Assembly: GCA_013151555.1 (NCBI GenBank)
Contig: JAADIA010000057.1
Coordinates: 1-12,500 of the forward strand
From: Nitrospirota bacterium
GTDB taxonomy: Bacteria; NPL-UPA2; JAADIA01
Length of the DNA: 12,500 bases
Direction: 5' to 3'
Position numbers and translations under genes: made by a program. Positions 746 to 9,959 of this stretch are shown here, piece by piece; within the stretch, counting starts at the first letter, position 1, and each line of letters opens with the position of its first letter. Below the pieces are notes generated by a model that had not been told where the DNA came from, did not search any database, and was given only the letters and a program-made list of their open reading frames with translations.

Positions 746-762
746 ATAAATTAAAAATGATC

Positions 763-815
763 CAGACATTAGACTTTAGACATCAGACTAAAAAATCTTT
801 TGGTCTCTTGTCTGA
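763..815. repeat. Spacer word repeat, CAGACATTAGAC family (copy 1)
   Basis: Low-complexity spacer after clpC. Variants of the word cagacattagac / agactttagac / catcagac occupy the left part (763-788), then an A/T tract, then the inverse words ggtct (802-806) and gtctg (810-814), so the RNA could form an imperfect hairpin. The 10-mer gactttagac at 772-781 recurs as its reverse complement at 8244-8253 in the spacer before lpxB, which makes this a dispersed family and not chance composition. Confidence 0.7.
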
Positions 816-831
816 AGGAAGCATAATAATT

Positions 832-943
832 GGAAATTCGAAGCCCGAAATACGAATAATCGAAACAATGTTTCGGATTTTGAAAATTAGTATTTCGTAT
901 TTGTTTCGAGTTTCGGATTTAGTATTTAGTATTTCGGATTTCT
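832..943. repeat. Spacer word repeat, CGAAATACGAA family
   Basis: The left half carries cgaaatacgaa and related words (gaaattcgaag, aatcgaaac) and the right half carries their inverse (tttcgtatttgtttcg, tttcggattt). Perfect inverted pieces are aaatacgaa 848-856 with ttcgtattt 894-902, and a tight hairpin cgaaac 861-866 / gtttcg 870-875 with a 3-nt loop. The block sits directly upstream of bamA and contains no credible gene; the short open frame through it is only the translation of the repeat. Confidence 0.7.
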
Positions 944-975
944 CTAAACTCTGCGCCTATTAAATAGAAAGGGCT

Positions 976-3249
976 ATGCTGGTGAAAACTAAAAGAATAA
1001 TCTTATTTTTATCCTTAGCTCTCAGTTTTATGTCATCGATAGTCTGGGCGGAGGAAGGAAAAGAGATAAAAGCCCTGGACGTAAGCGGCAACAGTCGGGT
1101 AAGCACTTTAATTATTTTATCCAATATTAAAACCAAAGTGGGAGACAACTTTTCCTCTTTGGTGATTCGGGAAGATGTGAAGCGTCTTTACGGCTTGGGT
1201 TATTTCTCTGATGTAGAGGTAGATGTAACTGACTATAAAGGAGGAGTGAAAGTAACCTTCATTGTTAAAGAAGAGTTTCTGATTAAAAAGATAAACCTGG
1301 TTGGAATCAAGGCTCTCAAGGAAAAAACCCTGAGAGAAGTGATGGTTCTTACTACCGGCGATGTCTTCAACAAGCGCTTGTTGAATGAAGATGTAAAGAA
1401 GATTACCTCTTTATATCAAGAGAAGGGGTACTATTTGGTTAAAGTGAAGGCGGAAGTCGAACGGCTGAATAAAGAGCAGAAAGTCATTATTAACATTACT
1501 ATTGAAGAAGGGGTGGGCGTAAGAGTTAAGGAGATTAAAATAGAGGGCAACCATTCCTTTCCGGGGAAGAGAATAAAGAAGATAATGGCTACGCGTGTTG
1601 CCGGGTTCTTCACGCGAGGGGTATTCAAAGAGGAAGACTTTCAGGGAGATTTGGAAAGGATTATTTCCTTCTATCAGAACCAGGGTTTTATCAAAGCCAG
1701 GATCGTGGATACGCAGAAGCGTCTGGATAAATCAAAAGGAAGGATTTATCTAACGATAAAAATTGAGGAAGGTCCCAGGTTTGAAGTGGGCAAGATAAAC
1801 TTAAAAGGAAACGCTCTTTTTTCTGATAAAAAGTTAAGGAATGAATTGAAAATGCTGGAGGGAGATATTTATAGTCCGGAAGGCCTGAAGCAGGATGTGG
1901 CAAGAATCAAGGTTTATTATGCCCATAAGGGCTATATATTTGCCAAGGTAGATGGGGAGACGAATGTAGAAGAAAAGGAAAAGAAAGTCAACATAACTTA
2001 TCAGATAGTTGAGGATGGGTTGGTCTATATTGAAATGATAGAGATTAAGGGCAATACGAAGACAAAAGATAAGGTTTTAAGACGCGAATTAACCATCAAA
2101 CCAGGAGATATTTTCGATGCCCGGAAGATTGAGCGCAGCCGGCAGAAGCTTTATAACTTAGGCTATTTCGATGAGGTCAGTTACTATATCACCCCGGGAA
2201 GTGTTCCCAATAAGAAAAACCTGGTTTTCGAAGTAGGGGAGCGGAAGACAGGGTCCTTCATGTTTGGATTCGGATATAGCAGCGTGGACAATTTCATCGG
2301 TTTCATTGAACTCTCCCAGAACAACTTTGATATTAAGAATCCTCCCACCTTCACCGGGGGAGGGCAGAAAGTGAGGATAAGAGCTCAACTGGGAACAGAG
2401 AAAACAGATTATGATTTAAGTTTCACCGAGCCCTGGTTATTCGACCGGCCCCTATCCTTCGGTTTCGATATCTACAATACTACCCGGAAGTGGACAGATT
2501 ATGATGAAGGAAGACAAGGGGGAAGGTTGCGGTTGAGCTACCCTCTGGGAGAATTTACCCGCGGCTCTTTGGCCTACAAACTCGAAGATGTAGGAATCTC
2601 CCGTGTGGATAAAGATGCTTCCAGCCAGATTAAACAGGAGGAGGGAACCTTTACCACCAGCAGTTTAAAGATGGGACTGATTAAAGATACGCGGGATAAC
2701 GTTCTCGATCCTACAAATGGATACAAGAACAGTATCTCGGCCGAGATAGCGGGAGGGCTTTTTGGAGGGGATAGGGACTTTACTAAGTATATCGGGGAAA
2801 CAAGCTGGTATTTCAAAACATTCAAGAGGTGGGAAAAACTAATCCTGAACCTGAGGCTTAAAGGAGGATTGGTGGAAGAATATGGTGATACGGACTATGT
2901 TCCTATCTATGAGCGTTTCTACCTGGGAGGGGCCAATTCCATTCGAGGATACGCTTATCGGGATATTGGTCCCAAAGACGAGAAAGGAGAACCGCTTGGA
3001 GGGAAAACTTTCCTGCAGTTTAATGCCGAGTATACTTATCCTATAGTGAGAAATATCAAAGGAGCAATCTTCTTTGATAGTGGTGGAGTCTGGGCAGATG
3101 CCTGGAGTTTCGATTCAAGCGGTATAGAGTCAGGAGTGGGTATCGGGCTGCGACTGAATCTTCCCATCGGGCCAATTCGCTTGGACTATGGTTACGGGAT
3201 AAACAGGGGAAAGGGCCGGGTGCATTTTACCGGAGGATGGAATTTTTAA
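976..3249 (+). CDS. bamA: BamA, outer-membrane protein assembly factor
   Basis: Core Omp85 protein of the BAM complex, which folds and inserts beta-barrel proteins into the outer membrane. The 757 residues begin with a signal peptide (hydrophobic stretch about 8-23, likely cleavage after VWA at residue 25). Five POTRA domains follow at about 31-100, 101-179, 180-266, 267-347 and 348-425, each with the expected beta-alpha-alpha-beta-beta pattern and a central GNxx / GYF-type turn. The C-terminal barrel spans about 426-757, contains the loop-6 motif SIRGY at 655-659 (family consensus V/I-R-G-F/Y) and ends in GGWNF with the terminal Phe of a beta-signal. Length is slightly below the roughly 800 of E. 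coli BamA. The ATG at 976 is preceded by agaaagg. It heads the run followed by skp and the lpx genes, a common arrangement for outer-membrane biogenesis operons. Confidence 0.96.
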   Translation: MLVKTKRIILFLSLALSFMSSIVWAEEGKEIKALDVSGNSRVSTLIILSNIKTKVGDNFSSLVIREDVKRLYGLGYFSDVEVDVTDYKGGVKVTFIVKEEFLIKKINLVGIKALKEKTLREVMVLTTGDVFNKRLLNEDVKKITSLYQEKGYYLVKVKAEVERLNKEQKVIINITIEEGVGVRVKEIKIEGNHSFPGKRIKKIMATRVAGFFTRGVFKEEDFQGDLERIISFYQNQGFIKARIVDTQKRLDKSKGRIYLTIKIEEGPRFEVGKINLKGNALFSDKKLRNELKMLEGDIYSPEGLKQDVARIKVYYAHKGYIFAKVDGETNVEEKEKKVNITYQIVEDGLVYIEMIEIKGNTKTKDKVLRRELTIKPGDIFDARKIERSRQKLYNLGYFDEVSYYITPGSVPNKKNLVFEVGERKTGSFMFGFGYSSVDNFIGFIELSQNNFDIKNPPTFTGGGQKVRIRAQLGTEKTDYDLSFTEPWLFDRPLSFGFDIYNTTRKWTDYDEGRQGGRLRLSYPLGEFTRGSLAYKLEDVGISRVDKDASSQIKQEEGTFTTSSLKMGLIKDTRDNVLDPTNGYKNSISAEIAGGLFGGDRDFTKYIGETSWYFKTFKRWEKLILNLRLKGGLVEEYGDTDYVPIYERFYLGGANSIRGYAYRDIGPKDEKGEPLGGKTFLQFNAEYTYPIVRNIKGAIFFDSGGVWADAWSFDSSGIESGVGIGLRLNLPIGPIRLDYGYGINRGKGRVHFTGGWNF

Positions 3250-3250
3250 A

Positions 3251-3350
3251 CAGGGTTCAAGGGGTCAAGGATTCAAGGGGCCAAGGGGCCAGGGGTTCAA
3301 GTGAAAAACTTTAGAAAGCAAATCCTCAAACCCTCGCATCTTTGAACCCT
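3251..3350. repeat. Spacer word repeat, GGTTCAAGG family (copy 1)
   Basis: This region fills the bamA-skp spacer. The left part repeats gggttcaagg / ggtcaagg / attcaagg / ggccaagg. The right part carries the inverse (cctcaaaccct, ttgaaccct). agggttcaa at 3252-3260 is perfectly complementary to ttgaaccct at 3342-3350. The same words return in the next spacer (3936-4030). Confidence 0.72.
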
Positions 3351-3371
3351 ATTTTTGAGAGGAGGAAGGCG

Positions 3372-3923
3372 ATGAGAAAGGTTATAGCTTTTTTTATGGT
3401 GGTGAGCTTATTAGGTCTGGGTTTAACTTATCGGGCAGAGGCAGGAGCGAAATCTTCGGATGCATCTTCGCTCAAGATCGGCTCTGTGGATATGGGAAAG
3501 GTCATTGGCCAGTATTATAAGGCGAAAGAGATTGAAGAAACCTTGCAGAAAAAGCAAGAGGCAAAGCAAAAGGAGATAGAAGGTAAGCGAGAGGAAATAA
3601 ATAAGTTGACGGAGGAGCTAAAGACTCAGGGGTCCGTCTTGAAAGCGGAAGAGAAGAAGAAAAAGGCTAAGATAATTGAAGAGAAAAAGAAAATGCTGGG
3701 ACAGCTTTTTCGGGCATACGATTCGGAAATGAGAAGTAACGTTATGCAGAAGCAGAAAGAGATACTTGAAGATATCCAGGCAGCTATAGAATCGTTTGGA
3801 AAGAAAAACGGTTATACGCTTATTCTTGATGCCAGACAGGTTTTATACAGCTCCAAAGCAGACCTGGATGTAACCGGAGAGATTATAAAGCTACTTAACA
3901 AGACGAAAAAAACAGCAAATTAG
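3372..3923 (+). CDS. skp: OmpH/Skp-family periplasmic chaperone
   Basis: Periplasmic holdase chaperone that binds unfolded outer-membrane proteins on their way to BamA. The 183 residues open with a signal peptide (MRKVIAFFMVVSLLGLGL..., likely cleaved after AEA near residue 24). A short N-terminal beta segment with the family-typical KIGSVDMGKVI follows. Next is a long Lys/Glu-rich coiled coil at about residues 50-125 (the tentacle arms of the trimer), and then a C-terminal segment NGYTLILDARQVLYSS that completes the body domain. The ATG at 3372 is chosen because a strong ribosome binding site (gaggagg) lies about 6 nt upstream and the signal peptide starts right there. An in-frame TTG at 3342 would place ten extra residues in front of the signal peptide and has no such site. 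It lies between bamA and lpxC, as in many diderms, but the usual lpxD neighbour is absent. Confidence 0.93.
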   Translation: MRKVIAFFMVVSLLGLGLTYRAEAGAKSSDASSLKIGSVDMGKVIGQYYKAKEIEETLQKKQEAKQKEIEGKREEINKLTEELKTQGSVLKAEEKKKKAKIIEEKKKMLGQLFRAYDSEMRSNVMQKQKEILEDIQAAIESFGKKNGYTLILDARQVLYSSKADLDVTGEIIKLLNKTKKTAN

Positions 3924-3935
3924 TTCAAATAAATA

Positions 3936-4030
3936 GGGTCTGAGGGTTCAAGGGTTCGAGGATTCAAGTGTTTATTCTTTTAAAGATTTTCACTCGATCC
4001 CTTGAGCACTTGGCTCTCTGAATCCTGGGG
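3936..4030. repeat. Spacer word repeat, GGTTCAAGG family (copy 2)
   Basis: This region fills the skp-lpxC spacer with agggttcaagggttcgagg and ggattcaag words, followed by the inverse words. ttcaagggttcgag at 3947-3960 pairs with ctcgatcccttgag at 3993-4006 at 12 of 14 positions. The word is shared with the preceding spacer (3251-3350). Confidence 0.7.
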
Positions 4031-4037
4031 AGAAGCG

Positions 4038-5348
4038 ATGGATTGCCAGAAGACAATTAGTAAAGAAACAAGTTATACCGGAGTTGGTCTCCACACAGGT
4101 AATAAAACCACCGTCAATTTTAAGCCTGCTCCGGTTAATAGTGGGGTAAGATTTGTGCGAACAGACCTTCCCGGGAAGCCAGGGATAACAGCTAACATCC
4201 TGGCAGCAGTAGATGCTCCTCGCCGTACTACCCTCAGGAGTGGGGAAGTTGAGGTACATACGGTGGAACATATCTTAGCTGCCTTAGCCGGCTTGGGCCT
4301 GGATAATCTGATTATTGAGGTTAATGCTAATGAAGTCCCGGAAATTGATGGAAGTTCTCTTCCTTTCACCCGGATGCTTGCCGACTGTGGAATTGTCGAA
4401 CAGGAGGAAGCGAAAAGATACGGGCAGATAACCAAACCCATCTACATCTCGGAGAACGGTACTTATATAGCGGCTTTTCCCGCCGATGAATTCAGGATAT
4501 CCTTCACTATCGATTACGACCACTCCTATCTCCAAACTCAGTTTGCTTCTTTCTCCATAACTCCGGATATTTTTGAAAAAGAGATTGCCGGGGCCAGAAC
4601 CTTCTGTCTGGAACGGGAATCTAAAGCTCTCCAAGCTCAGGGATTAGGCAAGGGAGCCAGCTTCCAGAATACGGTAGTCGTTGGGGACAAAGGAGTTGTT
4701 AAAGGAGAATTGAGATTCAAGAACGAGTTTGTTCGTCACAAGATACTGGACTTAATGGGAGACCTGTTTCTTCTCGGGAGTCCTCTCAAGGCTCAGATCA
4801 TTGCCTCCCGGTCGGGGCACTCCCTCAATATCAAATTAGTCCAGAAGATTAAAGAGGCGATAAAGGACAGCCGAAAGGCCCACTTAACCCTTCCTTCTCA
4901 ACCGGATTCAGGAGAAGAACTTCTGGATATAGAAGATATTCAGAAGATTCTCCCGCACCGTTACCCTTTTCTCCTGGTAGATAAGATTGTAGAGATAGAG
5001 GAGAACAAGAGGATTGTAGGGATTAAGAATGTGACCATTAATGAACCCTTCTTTTCCGGACATTTCCCGGGAAGACCAATTATGCCCGGGGTCCTCATTA
5101 TCGAAGCTTTAGCGCAGGCGGCCGGGGTGCTGATGCTGAAAAAGACGGAGAACCGGGGAAAGTTAGCTTACCTTGCCGCCATTAATAAAGTTAAACTAAG
5201 AAAGCCTGTCGTTCCCGGCGATCAGTTAAGGTTGGACATAAAAGTAAGTAAACTCCGAAGCAAGACCGGGAAAATAGAGAGTCGAGCTTTAGTGAAAGGA
5301 AAAGTAGTCGCAGAAGCAGAGTTGATCTTCTCTTTAGTGGAAGCATAA
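4038..5348 (+). CDS. lpxC/fabZ: Bifunctional LpxC-FabZ: lipid A deacetylase fused to 3-hydroxyacyl-ACP dehydratase
   Basis: Two enzymes in one 436-residue chain. Residues 1 to about 275 are LpxC, the Zn-dependent deacetylase of UDP-3-O-acyl-GlcNAc and committed step of lipid A synthesis. Its active site is visible as VEH at 76-78 (base E77, zinc ligand H78), [10 protein letters not shown] with zinc ligands H234 and D238, and SGH with H261. Residues about 297-436 are FabZ, the hotdog-fold dehydratase of fatty-acid elongation, with [18 protein letters not shown] (catalytic H342) and EALAQ (catalytic E356). A linker of about 20 residues joins them and both catalytic sets look intact. The ATG at 4038 follows ggggagaag and begins with the normal LpxC N-terminus; an in-frame TTG at 4002 would add 12 residues translated from repeat DNA. 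Such fusions are known from Bacteroidetes and some other diderm phyla. The two activities draw on the same 3-hydroxyacyl pool as LpxA downstream. Confidence 0.95.
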
Positions 5349-5350
5349 AT

Positions 5351-5428
5351 CACAGAGGACAGAATACAGAAATCAGAAGAGAAGAGGTTTTTTCTGTTCT
5401 CTATCTTCTGTTCTCTGCCTTCTATCAC
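5351..5428. repeat. Spacer word repeat, GAGGACAGAAG family (copy 1)
   Basis: This region fills the lpxC-lpxA spacer. The left half has cagaggacagaa, atacagaa and atcagaag; the right half has the inverse words (tctgttctct, atcttctgttctctg). The 12-mer cagaggacagaa at 5353-5364 recurs at 9495-9506 at the end of lpxB, in the same orientation relative to transcription. Confidence 0.7.
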
Positions 5429-5444
5429 ATTAGAGGATTTTTAA

Positions 5445-6239
5445 ATGAGTATTCATCCTACAGCTATTATTCATCCCGATGCCCGGATTGCCGAAGATGT
5501 AGAGATTGGTCCTTATGCTTCCGTGGGAGAAAATGTTTCCATTGGTCGGGGAACGGTAATTGGGAACTACGCTTTCATCAGCGGTTGGACGGTTATTGGG
5601 GAAGGGAATAAGATTTCCCCCGGGGTAGTAATCGGTACCGAACCTCAAGATTTGAAGTATAAGGGGGAGGAAACAACTCTTGAGATAGGCGCCAATAATG
5701 TCATTCGAGAGTATGTAACCATCAATCGGGGCACGGTGGGAGGCGGGGGCAAAACTTCTGTTGGAAACAACTGTCTGCTTATGTCTTATACTCACATTGC
5801 CCACGATTGCCATATCGGAAACAATGTAGTCATGTCCAATTTAGCTACTCTGGGAGGACATGTAATTATCCAGGACGGAGTTTGGGTCGGAGGATTAGTA
5901 GGTATTCACCATTTTGTGACTATAGGCCGGTTAGCCTTCCTCGGCGGATATTCAAAGATAGTTAAAGATGTCCCTCCTTTTATGTTAACTGATGGGCAGC
6001 CGGCGACTGTAAAAGGACTGAATCTGGTTGGGTTGAGAAGAGCAAATATTTCTAAAGAGGAGATTGCCTCCATAAAGAAAACTTATCAGATTCTCTACCG
6101 TTCCCGGCTCAATACCTCTCAGGCGATTGCCAGGGTAGAGGAAGAAATTGATGTTACTAAAGAAGTGAGTTGCCTCATAGAATTTATCAAAAGAACCGCC
6201 CGGGGAAAGATGGGAAGAGCTAACGAATCAAGAATGTAA
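5445..6239 (+). CDS. lpxA: LpxA, acyl-ACP--UDP-N-acetylglucosamine O-acyltransferase
   Basis: Cytoplasmic enzyme that transfers a 3-hydroxyacyl chain from ACP to UDP-GlcNAc, the first step of lipid A synthesis. The 264 residues match the family length (E. coli 262). Residues about 1-190 form the left-handed beta-helix of hexapeptide repeats (HPTAIIHPDARI..., IGxxxxI spacing). The active-site motif SYTHIAHDC gives catalytic H120 (E. coli H125) with H117 beside it, and NRGTV and QDLKY are conserved. The C-terminal helical region starts near DGQPATVKGLNLVGLRR. The position equivalent to the E. coli acyl-length ruler G173 is G168 (FLGGYS), so a long chain in the C14 range is plausible, though other residues also matter. 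The ATG is preceded by agagga with 6 nt spacing. It follows lpxC/fabZ by 96 nt, the gap being filled by word repeats. Confidence 0.96.
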   Translation: MSIHPTAIIHPDARIAEDVEIGPYASVGENVSIGRGTVIGNYAFISGWTVIGEGNKISPGVVIGTEPQDLKYKGEETTLEIGANNVIREYVTINRGTVGGGGKTSVGNNCLLMSYTHIAHDCHIGNNVVMSNLATLGGHVIIQDGVWVGGLVGIHHFVTIGRLAFLGGYSKIVKDVPPFMLTDGQPATVKGLNLVGLRRANISKEEIASIKKTYQILYRSRLNTSQAIARVEEEIDVTKEVSCLIEFIKRTARGKMGRANESRM

Positions 6240-6241
6240 AA

Positions 6242-6327
6242 GATTAAGAATTAAGAATTAAGTATTAAGTATTAAGTATTAAGAAGGACTTAATCCTTAT
6301 AACTTACTACTTAATTCTGTTTTTTAA
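6242..6327. repeat. Spacer word repeat, TTAAGAATTAAG family (copy 1), with hairpin and T-run
   Basis: AT-rich spacer between lpxA and lpxI made of attaagaattaag and attaagtattaag words, followed by inverse words (cttaatcctt, acttaattct). agaattaagta at 6254-6264 is perfectly complementary to tacttaattct at 6308-6318, and the right arm is followed at once by T6 (6320-6325), as in a weak terminator. The terminal 19 nt (6309-6327) recur with one change at 7211-7229. Confidence 0.72.
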
Positions 6328-6340
6328 TGGGGGGAGAAAG

Positions 6341-7138
6341 TTGGAAAAGCTTGGCCTTATAGCCGGAAGCGGTCCTTTACCTTTGATTTCTGCCCGGGAA
6401 GCGAAGAGAGAGACAAGTGTCGTTGCTGTTGCCTTGTCCGGATATACTTCCCCGGAATTGGAAAATTTAGTTGATAAAATCTGCTGGGTTAAGCTGGGAG
6501 AGCTTGAGAGGGCAATAAAGTTTTTCCTCTCCGAAGGGGTCAAGCGGGCAGTAATGATCGGGAAAATACCCCAGTCGGTATTACTTAGCCGGACAGGATT
6601 CACTAAAGAGGCCGATTCCCTTTTAGCCAGACTTATTAGTAAACAAACGGAATCGGTCCTCAGGGCGGTGGCTAAAGAATTGGGAGAGAGAGGAATCGAG
6701 CTGGTCGATGGCCGGAAATATTTCTCGACCGGCCTGGCAGCGAAAGGAACCTTGACGCAACGCCAACCCACGAACGAAGAGCTTAAAGATATTGAATTCG
6801 GGAAGATACTGGTCAAAGAGATCGGTCGTCTGGATATTGGGCAAGCAGTAGTAGTTAAAAGAGGCATTGTTTTAGCGGTGGAAGCCATTGAGGGAACCGA
6901 TGAAGCTATTAAGCGGGGAGCGGCCCTGGGAGGAGAAGGGGTAATAGTGGTAAAAATGAGTAAACCCCAGCAGGACATGCGTTTCGATATCCCCGTGATC
7001 GGGAAAGAAACCCTGCAACTCCTCAAGGAAGTCAAAGCAGCCGTTTTAGCTATCGAAGCAGAAAGAACGGTGATTCTTGACAAGGAAGAATCTCTCAAAA
7101 TAGCCGAAGAGGCAGGGATTTGTGTAGTAGCTTTATAA
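6341..7138 (+). CDS. lpxI: LpxI, UDP-2,3-diacylglucosamine pyrophosphatase (DUF1009 family)
   Basis: Peripheral enzyme that splits UDP-2,3-diacylglucosamine into lipid X and UMP, the fourth lipid A step. It is the unrelated replacement for LpxH found in alphaproteobacteria and many other phyla. The 265 residues begin with KLGLIAGSGPLP, the typical N-terminal signature of the family. The C-terminal catalytic domain has VLAVEAIEGTDEAI (about 178-190), KRGAALGGEGVIVVKMSKPQQDMRFDIPVIG (about 191-221) with D212 and D216, and the end LAIEAERTVILDKEE. In Caulobacter LpxI the essential Asp225 lies in this last acidic motif; I infer, without an alignment, that D212 or D216 is its counterpart. The start is TTG at 6341, with ggggag just upstream. 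The nearby ATG at 6327 is out of frame and later in-frame starts would remove the conserved N-terminus. It is followed by the oxidoreductase and lpxB, its pathway successor. Confidence 0.93.
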   Translation: MEKLGLIAGSGPLPLISAREAKRETSVVAVALSGYTSPELENLVDKICWVKLGELERAIKFFLSEGVKRAVMIGKIPQSVLLSRTGFTKEADSLLARLISKQTESVLRAVAKELGERGIELVDGRKYFSTGLAAKGTLTQRQPTNEELKDIEFGKILVKEIGRLDIGQAVVVKRGIVLAVEAIEGTDEAIKRGAALGGEGVIVVKMSKPQQDMRFDIPVIGKETLQLLKEVKAAVLAIEAERTVILDKEESLKIAEEAGICVVAL

Positions 7139-7144
7139 AAGTAT

Positions 7145-7229
7145 AGGATTAAGAATTAAGACGCTCACTTCGTTCGCTCTAAGAATTAAGTATTTTGCTT
7201 AATCCTTACCACTTAATCCTGTTTTTTAA
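7145..7229. repeat. Spacer word repeat, TTAAGAATTAAG family (copy 2), with a 19-nt insert
   Basis: This spacer lies between lpxI and the oxidoreductase. aggattaag at 7145-7153 is complementary to cttaatcct at both 7198-7206 and 7212-7220. The second is followed by T6 (7222-7227), as in copy 1. In the middle, the 11-mer taagaattaag occurs twice (7150-7160 and 7180-7190), separated by a composition-foreign piece acgctcacttcgttcgctc (7161-7179). Confidence 0.72.
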
Positions 7230-7278
7230 CTTAATGCCTTGGTGCTGTTTGTATGCCTGTCTTTGATTTGGAGAGAGG

Positions 7279-8214
7279 ATGAAAAAAATTAAAGTAGGAG
7301 TAGTCGGAGTAGGACGTTTGGGGAAGGAGCATGCCCGTCTTTATTCTCTCCTCCCTGATGTTGACCTGACCGGTGTGGTTGATATCGACCATCGAAGAGC
7401 TCAAGAGGTAGCGGTTCAGTGCCAAACTGTTGGCTACCGGGACTATAAGGAGCTCTATGAAAGAGTAGAAGCTATAAGCATTGCTGTTCCTACTGATCTC
7501 CATTTTCCCATAGCCCGGGATTTCCTCAAAAGAGGCATTCATCTTCTTCTGGAGAAACCCATTACCCGGACAACGGAAGAAGCAGAGGAACTGATCAAGC
7601 TTGCTGACCGTGACAAATTGGTCTTCCAGGTCGGTCATATAGAAAGGTATAACGCCGCCATCAGGGAAGTAGAAGGGCTTGTTGATTCTCCCCGTTTTAT
7701 CGAGTCCCATCGTTTAGCTCCCTATCAGCCGCGAGGCACGGAGGTAGGAGTAGTTCTTGACCTGATGATTCATGACCTGGACATTATCCTGCATTTGGTG
7801 GATTCCCCCCTTAAACGAATCGAGGCTGTCGGGGTAGCCGTCCTCTCCCAGCATGAAGATATTGCCAATGTCCGCCTTCTCTTTCAGAATGGCTGTGTAG
7901 CCAATGTAACGTCCAGCCGTCTTAGCCGGGAGAAAATGCGGAAGCTGAGAATTTTTCAGAGCGATAGTTATATTTCTTTAGACTTCTTGACTCAGAAAAT
8001 TGACCTCTATCGAGAGAAAGAGGGCACCATTTCCGGGGAAAAGATTTCTCCCCCGAAACTTGAGCCGCTGGGATTGGAAATCAAGGATTTTGTCGAATGT
8101 GTGGTCAAGAAACGAAGTCCTTTAGTCTCGGGAGAAGAGGGAAAAGAAGTCCTGAAAGTGGCCCTGGAGATTGAGAGACAAATATATAATCAGACATTAG
8201 CCCATAGACATTAG
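7279..8214 (+). CDS. Gfo/Idh/MocA-family NAD(P)-dependent oxidoreductase in the lpx cluster
   Basis: Predicted soluble sugar dehydrogenase of 311 residues. The N-terminal Rossmann fold starts with KIKVGVVGVGRLGKEHA (GxGxxG at residues 10-15). The family signature EKP lies at 92-94 (LLLEKPITRT), followed by QVGHIERYN at 117-125 and DLMIHDLDI at 161-169, which supplies the conserved His/Asp near the active site; the C-terminal half is the mixed alpha/beta substrate domain. The ATG at 7279 follows ggagag. Genes of this family sit between lpxI or lpxA and lpxB in many diderms. One characterised member in lipid A clusters, GnnA, oxidises UDP-GlcNAc at C3 so that the aminotransferase GnnB can make a 2,3-diamino sugar; no GnnB-like gene is in this window, so that role is a hypothesis and the substrate is unknown. 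The last seven or so residues (QTLAHRH) are encoded by the spacer word repeat cagacattag. Confidence 0.88.
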   Translation: MKKIKVGVVGVGRLGKEHARLYSLLPDVDLTGVVDIDHRRAQEVAVQCQTVGYRDYKELYERVEAISIAVPTDLHFPIARDFLKRGIHLLLEKPITRTTEEAEELIKLADRDKLVFQVGHIERYNAAIREVEGLVDSPRFIESHRLAPYQPRGTEVGVVLDLMIHDLDIILHLVDSPLKRIEAVGVAVLSQHEDIANVRLLFQNGCVANVTSSRLSREKMRKLRIFQSDSYISLDFLTQKIDLYREKEGTISGEKISPPKLEPLGLEIKDFVECVVKKRSPLVSGEEGKEVLKVALEIERQIYNQTLAHRH

Positions 8215-8300
8215 CCCTCAGACTTTTTTTTTGCCATCTTTTAGTCTAAAGTCCATAGTCCATAGTCTGTATTTTATGGTCTGAAGTCCGGTGTCTGAAT
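8191..8300. repeat. Spacer word repeat, CAGACATTAGAC family (copy 2)
   Basis: The repeat starts inside the end of the oxidoreductase gene (cagacattagcccatagac...) and continues to just before lpxB. The left part has cagacattag, catagacattag and ctcagac; a T-run follows (8224-8232), then the inverse words tagtctaaagtccatagtc, catagtctg and gtgtctg. gtctaaagtc at 8244-8253 is the reverse complement of gactttagac at 772-781 in the clpC-bamA spacer. Confidence 0.72.
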
Positions 8301-8341
8301 TGCAAAAGCAGGTTCAGGAATTTGTGTAAGCGAGAGTAGAG

Positions 8342-9553
8342 ATGGGTAAAAAGGTAATGATTGTTGCCGGGGAAGCTTCCGGGGATTTGCATGGAGCCAA
8401 CCTGGTGAAGGCTCTCCGACACCTCTCTCCCGATTTAGAAATTGTGGGTATCGGCGGGGAGAAGATGAAAGCAGCGGGAGTTGAAATTCTTTTCGATATC
8501 AGCCAGATGGCTATTGTCGGATTTACGGAAGTCCTTTCCCAATTTAAAAAACTGAGACGGATTTTTCTTAAAACCTGCCGGGTTATAAAGACCGAGGAAT
8601 TAGCGGCCCTTATCCTTATTGACTACCCGGGATTCAACCTCCGCTTGGCCGCTCATGTCAAGAAACACAAGCTGGAAATACCGGTCATTTACTATATCAG
8701 TCCCCAGGTCTGGGCCTGGGGAAAAGGCCGGGTGAAAAGAATAGCCGAATTGGTTGATAAGATGATCGTTGTTTTTCCTTTCGAGCGGGAGATTTACCGG
8801 AATGAAGGGCTCCCGGTGGAATTTGTCGGTCATCCGCTTCTGGATGTCATCGGAGAAAGAGAATCGGAAGAGAAAACAGCCACGGATTTAAACGTTTCTT
8901 TGGATAATCCTATCGTTGGACTTCTCCCGGGAAGCCGGCGGCAAGAGATAAACAGGTTGTTGCCCCTTATGTTAAAGGCAGCTAAATTAATGAGAAAAGA
9001 GATGCCAACTCTCCGGTTTATTCTGCCCCGTGCCTCTACCGTCTCCTCTCCGGAGATAGGGAATCTTCTTCCCCCGGATTTAGAAGTGAGCGTAGTTACA
9101 GATAAAACCTACAAAGTAATGGCCTTAGCCGACCTTCTCCTGGTGGCCTCGGGAACGGCTACCCTGGAAGCTGCTTGCGTAGGAACACCGATGATAATCG
9201 TCTATAAAGTATCTCTCCTGAATTGGCTTTTGGCTAAATCCTTAATCAAAATTCCTCACCTCGGGTTGGTAAATGTAGTCGCGGGCCGGAAAGTGGTTCC
9301 GGAATTTCTCCAATTCGAAGCAGAGCCGCGAAGGCTTGCCTCTGCAGCTTTAAGTTTATTGGAGGATCGGGACAAACAAGAATTAATGAAAAAAGATTTA
9401 AAAGCGGTAAAGGCTCAATTAGGCCGGCCGGGAGCCAGCCGGAGGGCTGCTCACCTGGTGCTGGAGATGACGGAAGACAGAGAACGGAAGACAGCAGAGG
9501 ACAGAAGACAGAGAACAGAGGACAGAGAACAGAAGACTGAGGACAGAAGATAG
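8342..9553 (+). CDS. lpxB: LpxB, lipid-A-disaccharide synthase, with a repeat-encoded C-terminal tail
   Basis: Membrane-associated glycosyltransferase (GT19) that joins UDP-2,3-diacylglucosamine and lipid X into the lipid A disaccharide. Family landmarks in the 403 residues are GEASGDLHG (10-18), IGGEKM, AIVGFTEVL (57-65), DYPGFN (94-99), YYISPQVWAWGKGR (117-130), FVGHPL (161-166), LLPGSRRQEI (194-203) and the donor-binding segment ASGTATLEAA (269-278). Core homology ends near LVLEM (372-376), close to the usual length of about 380. Residues 377-403 are an extra, highly charged tail with a period of about seven (TEDRERK, TAEDRRQ, RTEDREQ, KTEDRR), read through spacer-type repeat DNA; I infer it is not part of the enzyme fold. 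The ATG at 8342 is preceded only by a weak gagag purine stretch. It is the last lipid A gene of the run. Confidence 0.94.
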   Translation: MGKKVMIVAGEASGDLHGANLVKALRHLSPDLEIVGIGGEKMKAAGVEILFDISQMAIVGFTEVLSQFKKLRRIFLKTCRVIKTEELAALILIDYPGFNLRLAAHVKKHKLEIPVIYYISPQVWAWGKGRVKRIAELVDKMIVVFPFEREIYRNEGLPVEFVGHPLLDVIGERESEEKTATDLNVSLDNPIVGLLPGSRRQEINRLLPLMLKAAKLMRKEMPTLRFILPRASTVSSPEIGNLLPPDLEVSVVTDKTYKVMALADLLLVASGTATLEAACVGTPMIIVYKVSLLNWLLAKSLIKIPHLGLVNVVAGRKVVPEFLQFEAEPRRLASAALSLLEDRDKQELMKKDLKAVKAQLGRPGASRRAAHLVLEMTEDRERKTAEDRRQRTEDREQKTEDRR

Positions 9554-9577
9554 AGAAAGCCTGACTTCTGTCCTCTG
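9470..9577. repeat. GAGGACAGAAG-family word repeat (copy 2) overlapping the 3' end of lpxB
   Basis: Variants of gacagagaac / gaggacagaag run from codon 377 of lpxB past its stop. The inverse word cttctgtcctctg at 9565-9577 pairs perfectly with cagaggacagaag at 9495-9507 (13 bp). It also pairs more tightly with gaggacagaag at 9539-9549 (11 bp, 15-nt loop). No T-run follows, so it is not a classical terminator, but a hairpin at the mRNA 3' end is likely. Confidence 0.72.
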
Positions 9578-9959
9578 GGGTTACGAGTTCCTCAAGGGGG
9601 GGATTACCCGGGGGCGCATCAGGTTATTATGGAATGATTATCGACGGTAAACAAGATAGGAAATTATAGGAAGAAGATAGATTTCAAAAAAAGACAAAAA
9701 GAACTTGACAAGGGAAAAGGAGTATGGTAAAAAGATAGACAAGTGTAGAAGCTTATCTATTGAGTTGTTTAAGCACCATCAGTAACTTCAAGTTTGGCCG
9801 GAAAGGAGGGTAGAATTTTAAGCCGCGAAGTTATGCGAGAATGGTGTTCATATAGATAGTAACTCTCAGTTCGTTCTGAAACGAGCTGATAAAAGGCCAT
9901 GTTTTATTTTATGGGGGACATGGTAAATAGATGGAAAAGAAGGAATGGAGGAGTAAATA
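9554..9959 (+). other. 406-nt gene-free region: end of the lpx run and porin 5' leader
   Basis: No supported gene is seen here. From left to right it holds the right arm of the lpxB 3' hairpin (to 9577), a G-rich stretch (about 9595-9616) with no clear role, a sigma70-like promoter (9705-9733) and a leader of about 220 nt. The leader has a 10-bp stem tcagttcgtt / aacgagctga (9866-9875 / 9880-9889, one G-U, 4-nt loop) and a 6-bp stem ccatgt / acatgg (9897-9902 / 9918-9923) close to the ribosome binding site ggaggag (9947-9953). The few very short open frames here have no ribosome binding site at a useful distance. I recognise no known riboswitch. Confidence 0.6.
9705..9733 (+). promoter_or_regulatory. 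Predicted sigma70-type promoter of the porin gene
   Basis: A perfect -35 TTGACA lies at 9705-9710, with a 17-nt spacer and a -10 TAAAAA at 9728-9733 (4 of 6 to TATAAT). Transcription would start near 9740 and give a 5' leader of about 220 nt. The -10 is imperfect; the -35, the spacing and the position after the last lpx gene support it. Confidence 0.55.

Follow-up and report, generated by a model that had tools for sequence, protein, structure and literature searches.

Several described systems come close to the sequences reported here. The REPIN/RAYT system consists of short non-coding hairpins in many intergenic copies, and a link to a Y1 transposase is a possible further point in common (Bertels and Rainey, 2011, PMC3116915). 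The short tandemly repeated repetitive (STRR) heptamers and the P6b stem of the cyanobacterial tRNA-Leu intron are, by their description, degenerate 7-nt repeats whose halves base-pair into a hairpin and which vary in copy number (PMC3488679). The TAACTGA heptamers of Beggiatoaceae, Cyanobacteria and Bacteroidetes form intergenic arrays with a patchy distribution and an apparently horizontal spread (MacGregor, 2015, PMC4679880), and the GGGAATC and GGGGAYT repeats of Xanthomonas and Nostoc are intergenic heptamer arrays, some of them inverted, whose length and sequence vary among closely related species (PMC4692102). Among the heptanucleotide elements of Geobacter metallireducens, class 3, with the consensus MTYCTGA, comprises five tandem heptamers (PMC2700814); on our own reading, the inverse of the GACAGA/TCAGAAG word fits this consensus. 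According to work cited in PMC4679880 and PMC4692102, heptanucleotide repeats are over-represented in many bacteria and polymerase slippage is implicated. A literature search with the word sequences, with most subscription papers outside its scope, found no earlier description.

The window is the whole stretch of DNA that was analysed, 12,500 nucleotides of the genome called G000 here. Its spacers probably hold mobile hairpin elements that are small (about 60-170 bp), non-coding and non-autonomous, belong to several families, have heptamer arms and lie at gene 3' ends. The observations behind this reading are dispersed homologous families, homology across phyla, whole-unit differences at orthologous junctions, different families at the same site, a position at gene 3' ends, avoidance of divergent spacers, a purine-first order and coupled arms.

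Word hairpins of the clpC-lpxB spacers

The window encodes, on the forward strand, the 3' part of clpC (positions 2-745; Pfam AAA_2 and ClpB_D2-small), bamA (976-3249; POTRA and Omp85), ompH/skp (3372-3923; PF03938), an lpxC-fabZ fusion (4038-5348; PF03331 and PF07977), then lpxA (5445-6239), lpxI (6341-7138) and the Gfo/Idh/MocA oxidoreductase gene gfo (7279-8214), all three assigned by domain search, and lpxB (8342-9553; Pfam LpxB), whose C-terminal tail is encoded by words. Genes were called with a simple in-house caller, and the start positions are approximate. On direct reading, all junctions of the clpC-lpxB run, the lpxB end included, consist of short words followed by the inverse of the same words, as a sequence-only reading of the window had claimed. 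Spacers were compared with dinucleotide-preserving shuffles for direct words, inverted words and 7/14-nt periodicity, with a cut-off of p<0.05. Significance was reached at 746-975, 3250-3371, 5349-5444, 6240-6340, 7139-7278 and 8215-8341, while 3924-4037 was borderline (inverted words p=0.0498, periodicity p=0.053); seven of the eight spacers, the borderline one included, thus exceed the shuffles. Spacer 9554-9959 was not significant alone because its forward words (9474-9552) sit in the lpxB reading frame. Most words are heptamers (GACAGAN, ATTAAGN, NAGACNT), and GGTTCAAGG has 8-9 nt.

The reuse of words in paired spacers, also part of the sequence-only reading, was confirmed for TAGAC, GGTTCAAGG, GACAGA and ATTAAG, each present twice. 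A TAGAC-word hairpin (CAGACATTAGACTTTAGACATCAGAC ... GGTCTCTTGTCTG) lies downstream of clpC at 763-815, in a blastn cluster with spacer 8215-8341 and other G000 copies; its counterpart at 8191-8300 covers the gfo 3' end and the gfo-lpxB spacer, the last codons of gfo (8191-8214) being word sequence that encodes the final seven residues, QTLAHRH. Hairpins of GGTTCAAGG words occupy the bamA/ompH junction (3253-3352), with further copies known from the genome search, and the ompH/lpxC-fabZ junction (3943-4025; borderline, p about 0.05). The GACAGA word, which recurs across phyla, forms a hairpin at the lpxC-fabZ/lpxA junction (5353-5426), where the genes of relatives overlap or abut, and an array within the lpxB 3' end with its inverse past the stop codon (9474-9577). 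LpxB consequently carries about 25-30 mostly word-encoded residues past the Pfam domain, which stops at residue 373 of 403; alignments with LpxB of relatives stop at about residue 375-380. ATTAAG-word hairpins are found at the lpxA/lpxI junction (6242-6327), followed by a T-tract (CTGTTTTTTAAT), and at the lpxI/gfo junction (7147-7229), the latter with an internal GACGCTCACTTCGTTCGCTC palindrome common to other copies. This small palindrome was located inside ATTAAG hairpins at window 7162-7181, L061:7345, L072:16483 and L075:12131, and several copies have it. Upstream of bamA, positions 832-950 are a CGAAA-family element, a member of a cross-phylum family, aligned with other G000 copies and with eight other genomes. 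Same-phylum relatives have lpx genes that overlap or are separated by only a few bases, with tight junctions free of inserts in G001, G003, G004 and G008; the window has 96-140 bp there.

Dispersed families within the genome and across phyla

Dispersed intergenic inverted repeats capable of hairpin folding are present genome-wide in G000. Among 142 spacers of a 285-kb sample, 391 exact 8-mer inverse pairs were observed against 87 expected, and spacer self-matches peaked at lags of 7, 14 and 21. In a sample of about 630 kb, 65 of 313 spacers held a significant hairpin (above the 1% null), with about 3 expected. Both the excess of pairing over shuffles and the extension of the pattern beyond the window, proposed as checks when the window was first read, were borne out. 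Tandem degenerate 7-nt words between genes were likewise confirmed, with a period of 7 in 18 of 28 periodic arms.

Among the significant G000 hairpins, the purine-rich arm is 5' in 56 and 3' in 7 (p about 1e-10); the best hairpins of non-significant spacers divide 131:106 into purine-first and not. Since a purine-first hairpin reads purine-first on both strands, this order is a property of the element and is silent on gene direction. The earlier claim that the forward word lies next to the upstream stop codon and the inverse nearer the next gene holds for the 5'/3' order in every case, but for the same reason carries no information on the direction of the genes. In a word-by-word test no significant order emerged for TCAAGG in G000 or for the majority of words in G145, a genome introduced below, and TCGAAA, which is nearly self-complementary, is poorly suited to this test. 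Hairpins occur in 63 of 276 co-directional spacers of G000 and in 2 of 37 convergent or divergent ones (p=0.016).

A blastn comparison among the 313 spacers gave families of 23, 13, 13, 12, 10, 9 and 9 members with about 80% identity. In the CGAAA cluster, to which window 832-950 belongs, a core of about 125 bp with a non-repetitive centre is conserved, and ATTAAG copies have an internal palindrome in common and resemble one another at the right end. Judged by their sequences, the hairpins are dispersed element families rather than independent products of slippage. The 12-member family is another sequence type, with palindromes ATTCGCACTTATCATCCGCC and GGGGAAATTCTC at L074:11268, L075:9835, L116:3687 and nine further G000 spacers. 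In G006, of the same phylum, the spacers of L086 between 12694 and 19603 are filled by other palindromes (GGGGTCAAGTCTTGCATTATAACAT..., GTCATTCCCGCG...).

The families were also sought in other genomes, which are mostly metagenome assemblies; phylum statements on the G-numbered genomes rest on the kinship assignment of the set. Matches to the CGAAA core were obtained in 20 of 289 other genomes, the best being 84% identity over 128 bp in G227, of a different phylum, and a dinucleotide-shuffled CGAAA query matches 1 of 290, at 7.9e-5. The ACAGGAT family has matches in 15 of 289 other genomes, and the ATTAAG family in 16, mostly weak. Three GACAGA words in tandem match 15 of 145 genomes, most strongly G000, G121, G002 and G123; control matches were few. 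Among GTDB species, 97 stretches drawn from about eleven phyla contain the exact GACAGA hairpin, where our own estimate under uniform composition predicts about 0.03. Carriers of this hairpin include Nitrospinota, several Proteobacteria, Desulfobacterota, Planctomycetota, Omnitrophota and Bacteroidota, as well as Chloroflexota, Acidobacteriota, one cyanobacterium, one Bacillota genome and Streptomyces relatives. The suggestion that PVC-related genomes carry such spacers is right for Planctomycetota and Omnitrophota, but too narrow, as about nine other phyla carry them as well. Word families co-occur in the same genomes beyond chance (p about 0.0005-0.003), and the degeneracy of the arms precludes a conventional phylogeny of the copies.

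Many GACAGA hits in Streptomyces and Kitasatospora were set aside as near-invariant palindromes, probably a different thing and perhaps an operator. The palindrome GACAGATGACAGAT(T/A)TTSAAATCTGTCATCTGTC is near-invariant at L132, L133, L141 and about 30 more loci of these genera, which is operator-like and distinct from a degenerate hairpin.

Outside the Streptomyces group, the 27 intergenic GACAGA hairpins lie in 18 co-directional, 9 convergent and 0 divergent spacers, against a background of 110:24:27, and in other phyla most start at a distance of up to about 30 nt from a stop codon. Another 20 cases fall within called genes, many near the called start, and these are probably miscalled genes. 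The outer flanks of the hairpins pair better with their own partner than with the partners of other genomes (16.1 versus 12.4, p=0.0002); for distant flanks of GACAGA hairpins the corresponding values are 10.1 and 9.5 (p=0.04).

Turnover at orthologous junctions

G121 and G145 are two species of one genus, in a phylum other than that of the window; both were partly sampled, and their median protein identity is 93%. Of their 57 orthologous junctions, 23 are co-directional and carry a significant hairpin in one species or both. At five of these 23 the genes are tightly spaced in the other species, at 9 its sequence is unrelated and at 9 it is homologous; among spacers without a hairpin, 10 are homologous and 2 unrelated. 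In all five hairpin-versus-tight differences the hairpin is in G121 and the tight junction in G145, and these can be read as gain or as loss, since a search of G146 did not turn up the junctions. At 3 of the 9 unrelated junctions each species has a significant hairpin, the words differing between the two, which is the word replacement at homologous spacers that the sequence-only reading had proposed to look for; for example, L235:2877 carries GACAGA words and L283:18137 carries TTCAAGATT, beside the same flank. Near-exact empty sites were found for L301:1971 (272 bp versus 1 bp, with the same stop and start codons on either side) and L301:843 (93 versus 12 bp). At filled sites the insertion comes after the stop codon or replaces it, and the filled and empty sites compared had no consistent target-site duplication and no constant terminal sequence. 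Within L301:1971-2242, a CATTGCGAGC...GCAATGACA palindrome is nested in a GACAGA hairpin; elements insert into one another.

The likeliest alternative, though itself judged unlikely, is local neutral generation, in which slippage expands 7-nt words, template switching in quasi-palindromes makes or repairs the inverse arm, and recurrence reflects slippage-prone purine heptamers. The heptamer periodicity of the G000 spacers, the better pairing of arms with their own partner than with same-family arms of other genomes, and the slippage-linked abundance of heptanucleotide repeats cited in PMC4679880 and PMC4692102 speak for it. Periodicity and partner matching are consistent with slippage accompanied by inverted copying, or with arms selected to pair; the recurrent layout and a common generating process, as first proposed for the window, are supported. 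Local generation alone is insufficient, because homologous cores recur within the genome and across phyla, whole hairpins are present or absent as units, and different words stand at one junction. The loops and cores common to copies and phyla are conserved and non-repetitive, and the cross-genome matches, with the real CGAAA core so far above its shuffled control, already strain this explanation.

RNA roles were tested separately. Intrinsic terminators were rejected, since terminator-like sites number 8 and shuffles give 10.3; a T-tract follows 10 of 65 hairpins and is seen in ATTAAG copies. The 3'-end hairpin role suggested from the window is not supported as far as a canonical terminator is meant. 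For the CGAAA family, a conserved RNA fold was rejected, as RNAalifold gives no pairs, and so were known RNA families: at the Rfam gathering score no spacer matched, and 16S rRNA was the sole match.

Functional RNA hairpins under selection at operon junctions, for instance guarding the upstream mRNA 3' end or setting translational coupling, are a quite improbable explanation. If only the hairpin matters, the word is replaceable, which would suit the three clear cases of different-word hairpins at the same junction of sister species; the position just past stop codons, the purine arm coming first and an arm coupling that exceeds the family consensus also point this way. However, the lpx operon of relatives runs without hairpins, five junctions with a hairpin in one species are tight in its sister, the CGAAA family has neither consensus fold nor covariation, and the hairpins are not terminator-like.

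Possible mobilisation and relation to known systems

Mobile hairpin elements are the preferred reading; no mobilising gene was found for the word hairpins. Y1_Tnp matches are present in 7 of 8 element-bearing genomes and also in 5 of 14 control genomes; G121 has 4, and G145 (92% complete) carries elements without any Y1 transposase match. In G000, a RAYT-like Y1 transposase gene at about 6200-6930 of L111 (G000:C1) is flanked by GGGGACAGGCTACTTT ... AAAGTAGCCTGTCCCC, a classical REP layout apart from the word hairpins. A tie between this gene and the word hairpins was rejected in the one genome examined, its flanks bearing a different palindrome. That the hairpins are REPINs proper, moved by RAYT transposases, is improbable too: dispersed hairpin units, the frequency of Y1_Tnp matches and the presence of all five hairpin-versus-tight cases in G121, with its Y1 matches, and their absence in G145, with none found, favour it, but the RAYT-like gene of G000 adjoins GGGGACAGGCTACTTT repeats instead of words, G145 has elements and no Y1 match, control genomes match Y1_Tnp too, and conserved REP 16-mer ends are lacking.

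A CGAAA query against plasmids gave no match, and IMG/VR viral contigs yielded one GACAGA hairpin and three CGAAA fragments, with zero for controls. No vehicle was seen, given the lack of a plasmid match for CGAAA and the great rarity of the elements in viral contigs. On viral contigs L349, L350 and L351, CGAAA-family fragments adjoin CGTCGCTCGTCGCTCG words. In comparison with MITEs, inverted arms are present, and a partial search saw no autonomous element with the same ends.

Each element consists of degenerate tandem words, mostly of 7 nt, in a purine-rich array, followed by a loop and the inverse array. We infer that new copies arise by insertion of the whole unit at gene 3' ends, by a transposase or another enzyme acting in trans on the hairpin, with a RAYT-like Y1 transposase as a candidate only. 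Slippage in steps of 7 nt and arm-to-arm copying may afterwards alter the number of words while the arms stay complementary, and insertions would persist mainly in the stretch from the stop codon to the following ribosome-binding site, presumably the least harmful place for them. More tentatively, such hairpins could form a superfamily of non-coding mobile elements without an earlier name: purine-first heptamer-word hairpins, with word families across about eleven phyla, that insert at gene 3' ends, replace one another at junctions within a genus and are moved by a putative enzyme.

If this is true, mobile hairpin DNA would account for much of the intergenic sequence in some uncultured bacteria, crossing phyla, turning over within a genus and parting operon genes that abut or overlap in relatives. 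It would also open a testable path toward a candidate mobiliser, advise caution in annotating operons, regulatory sites and C-termini of such genomes, and give scattered reports of bacterial heptamer repeats a shared frame.

The closest known kinds are REPIN/MITE elements and the cyanobacterial heptamer repeats. A REPIN is built on one conserved REP (PMC3116915), whereas the arms here are degenerate tandem heptamers, with several families per genome, families common across phyla and a RAYT-like gene without adjoining words. TAACTGA heptamers are almost only direct repeats just upstream of start codons, in contrast to a word with its inverse past stop codons (PMC4679880). The G. metallireducens elements are reported as putative regulator-binding sites of one genome (PMC2700814), and the GGGAATC and GGGGAYT repeats are G-quadruplex-type words with one family described per genome (PMC4692102). 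Unlike the STRR heptamers and the intron P6b stem (PMC3488679), the word hairpins are intergenic elements of general occurrence: they comprise many word families, several phyla carry them, and they are seen as whole-unit differences between genomes.
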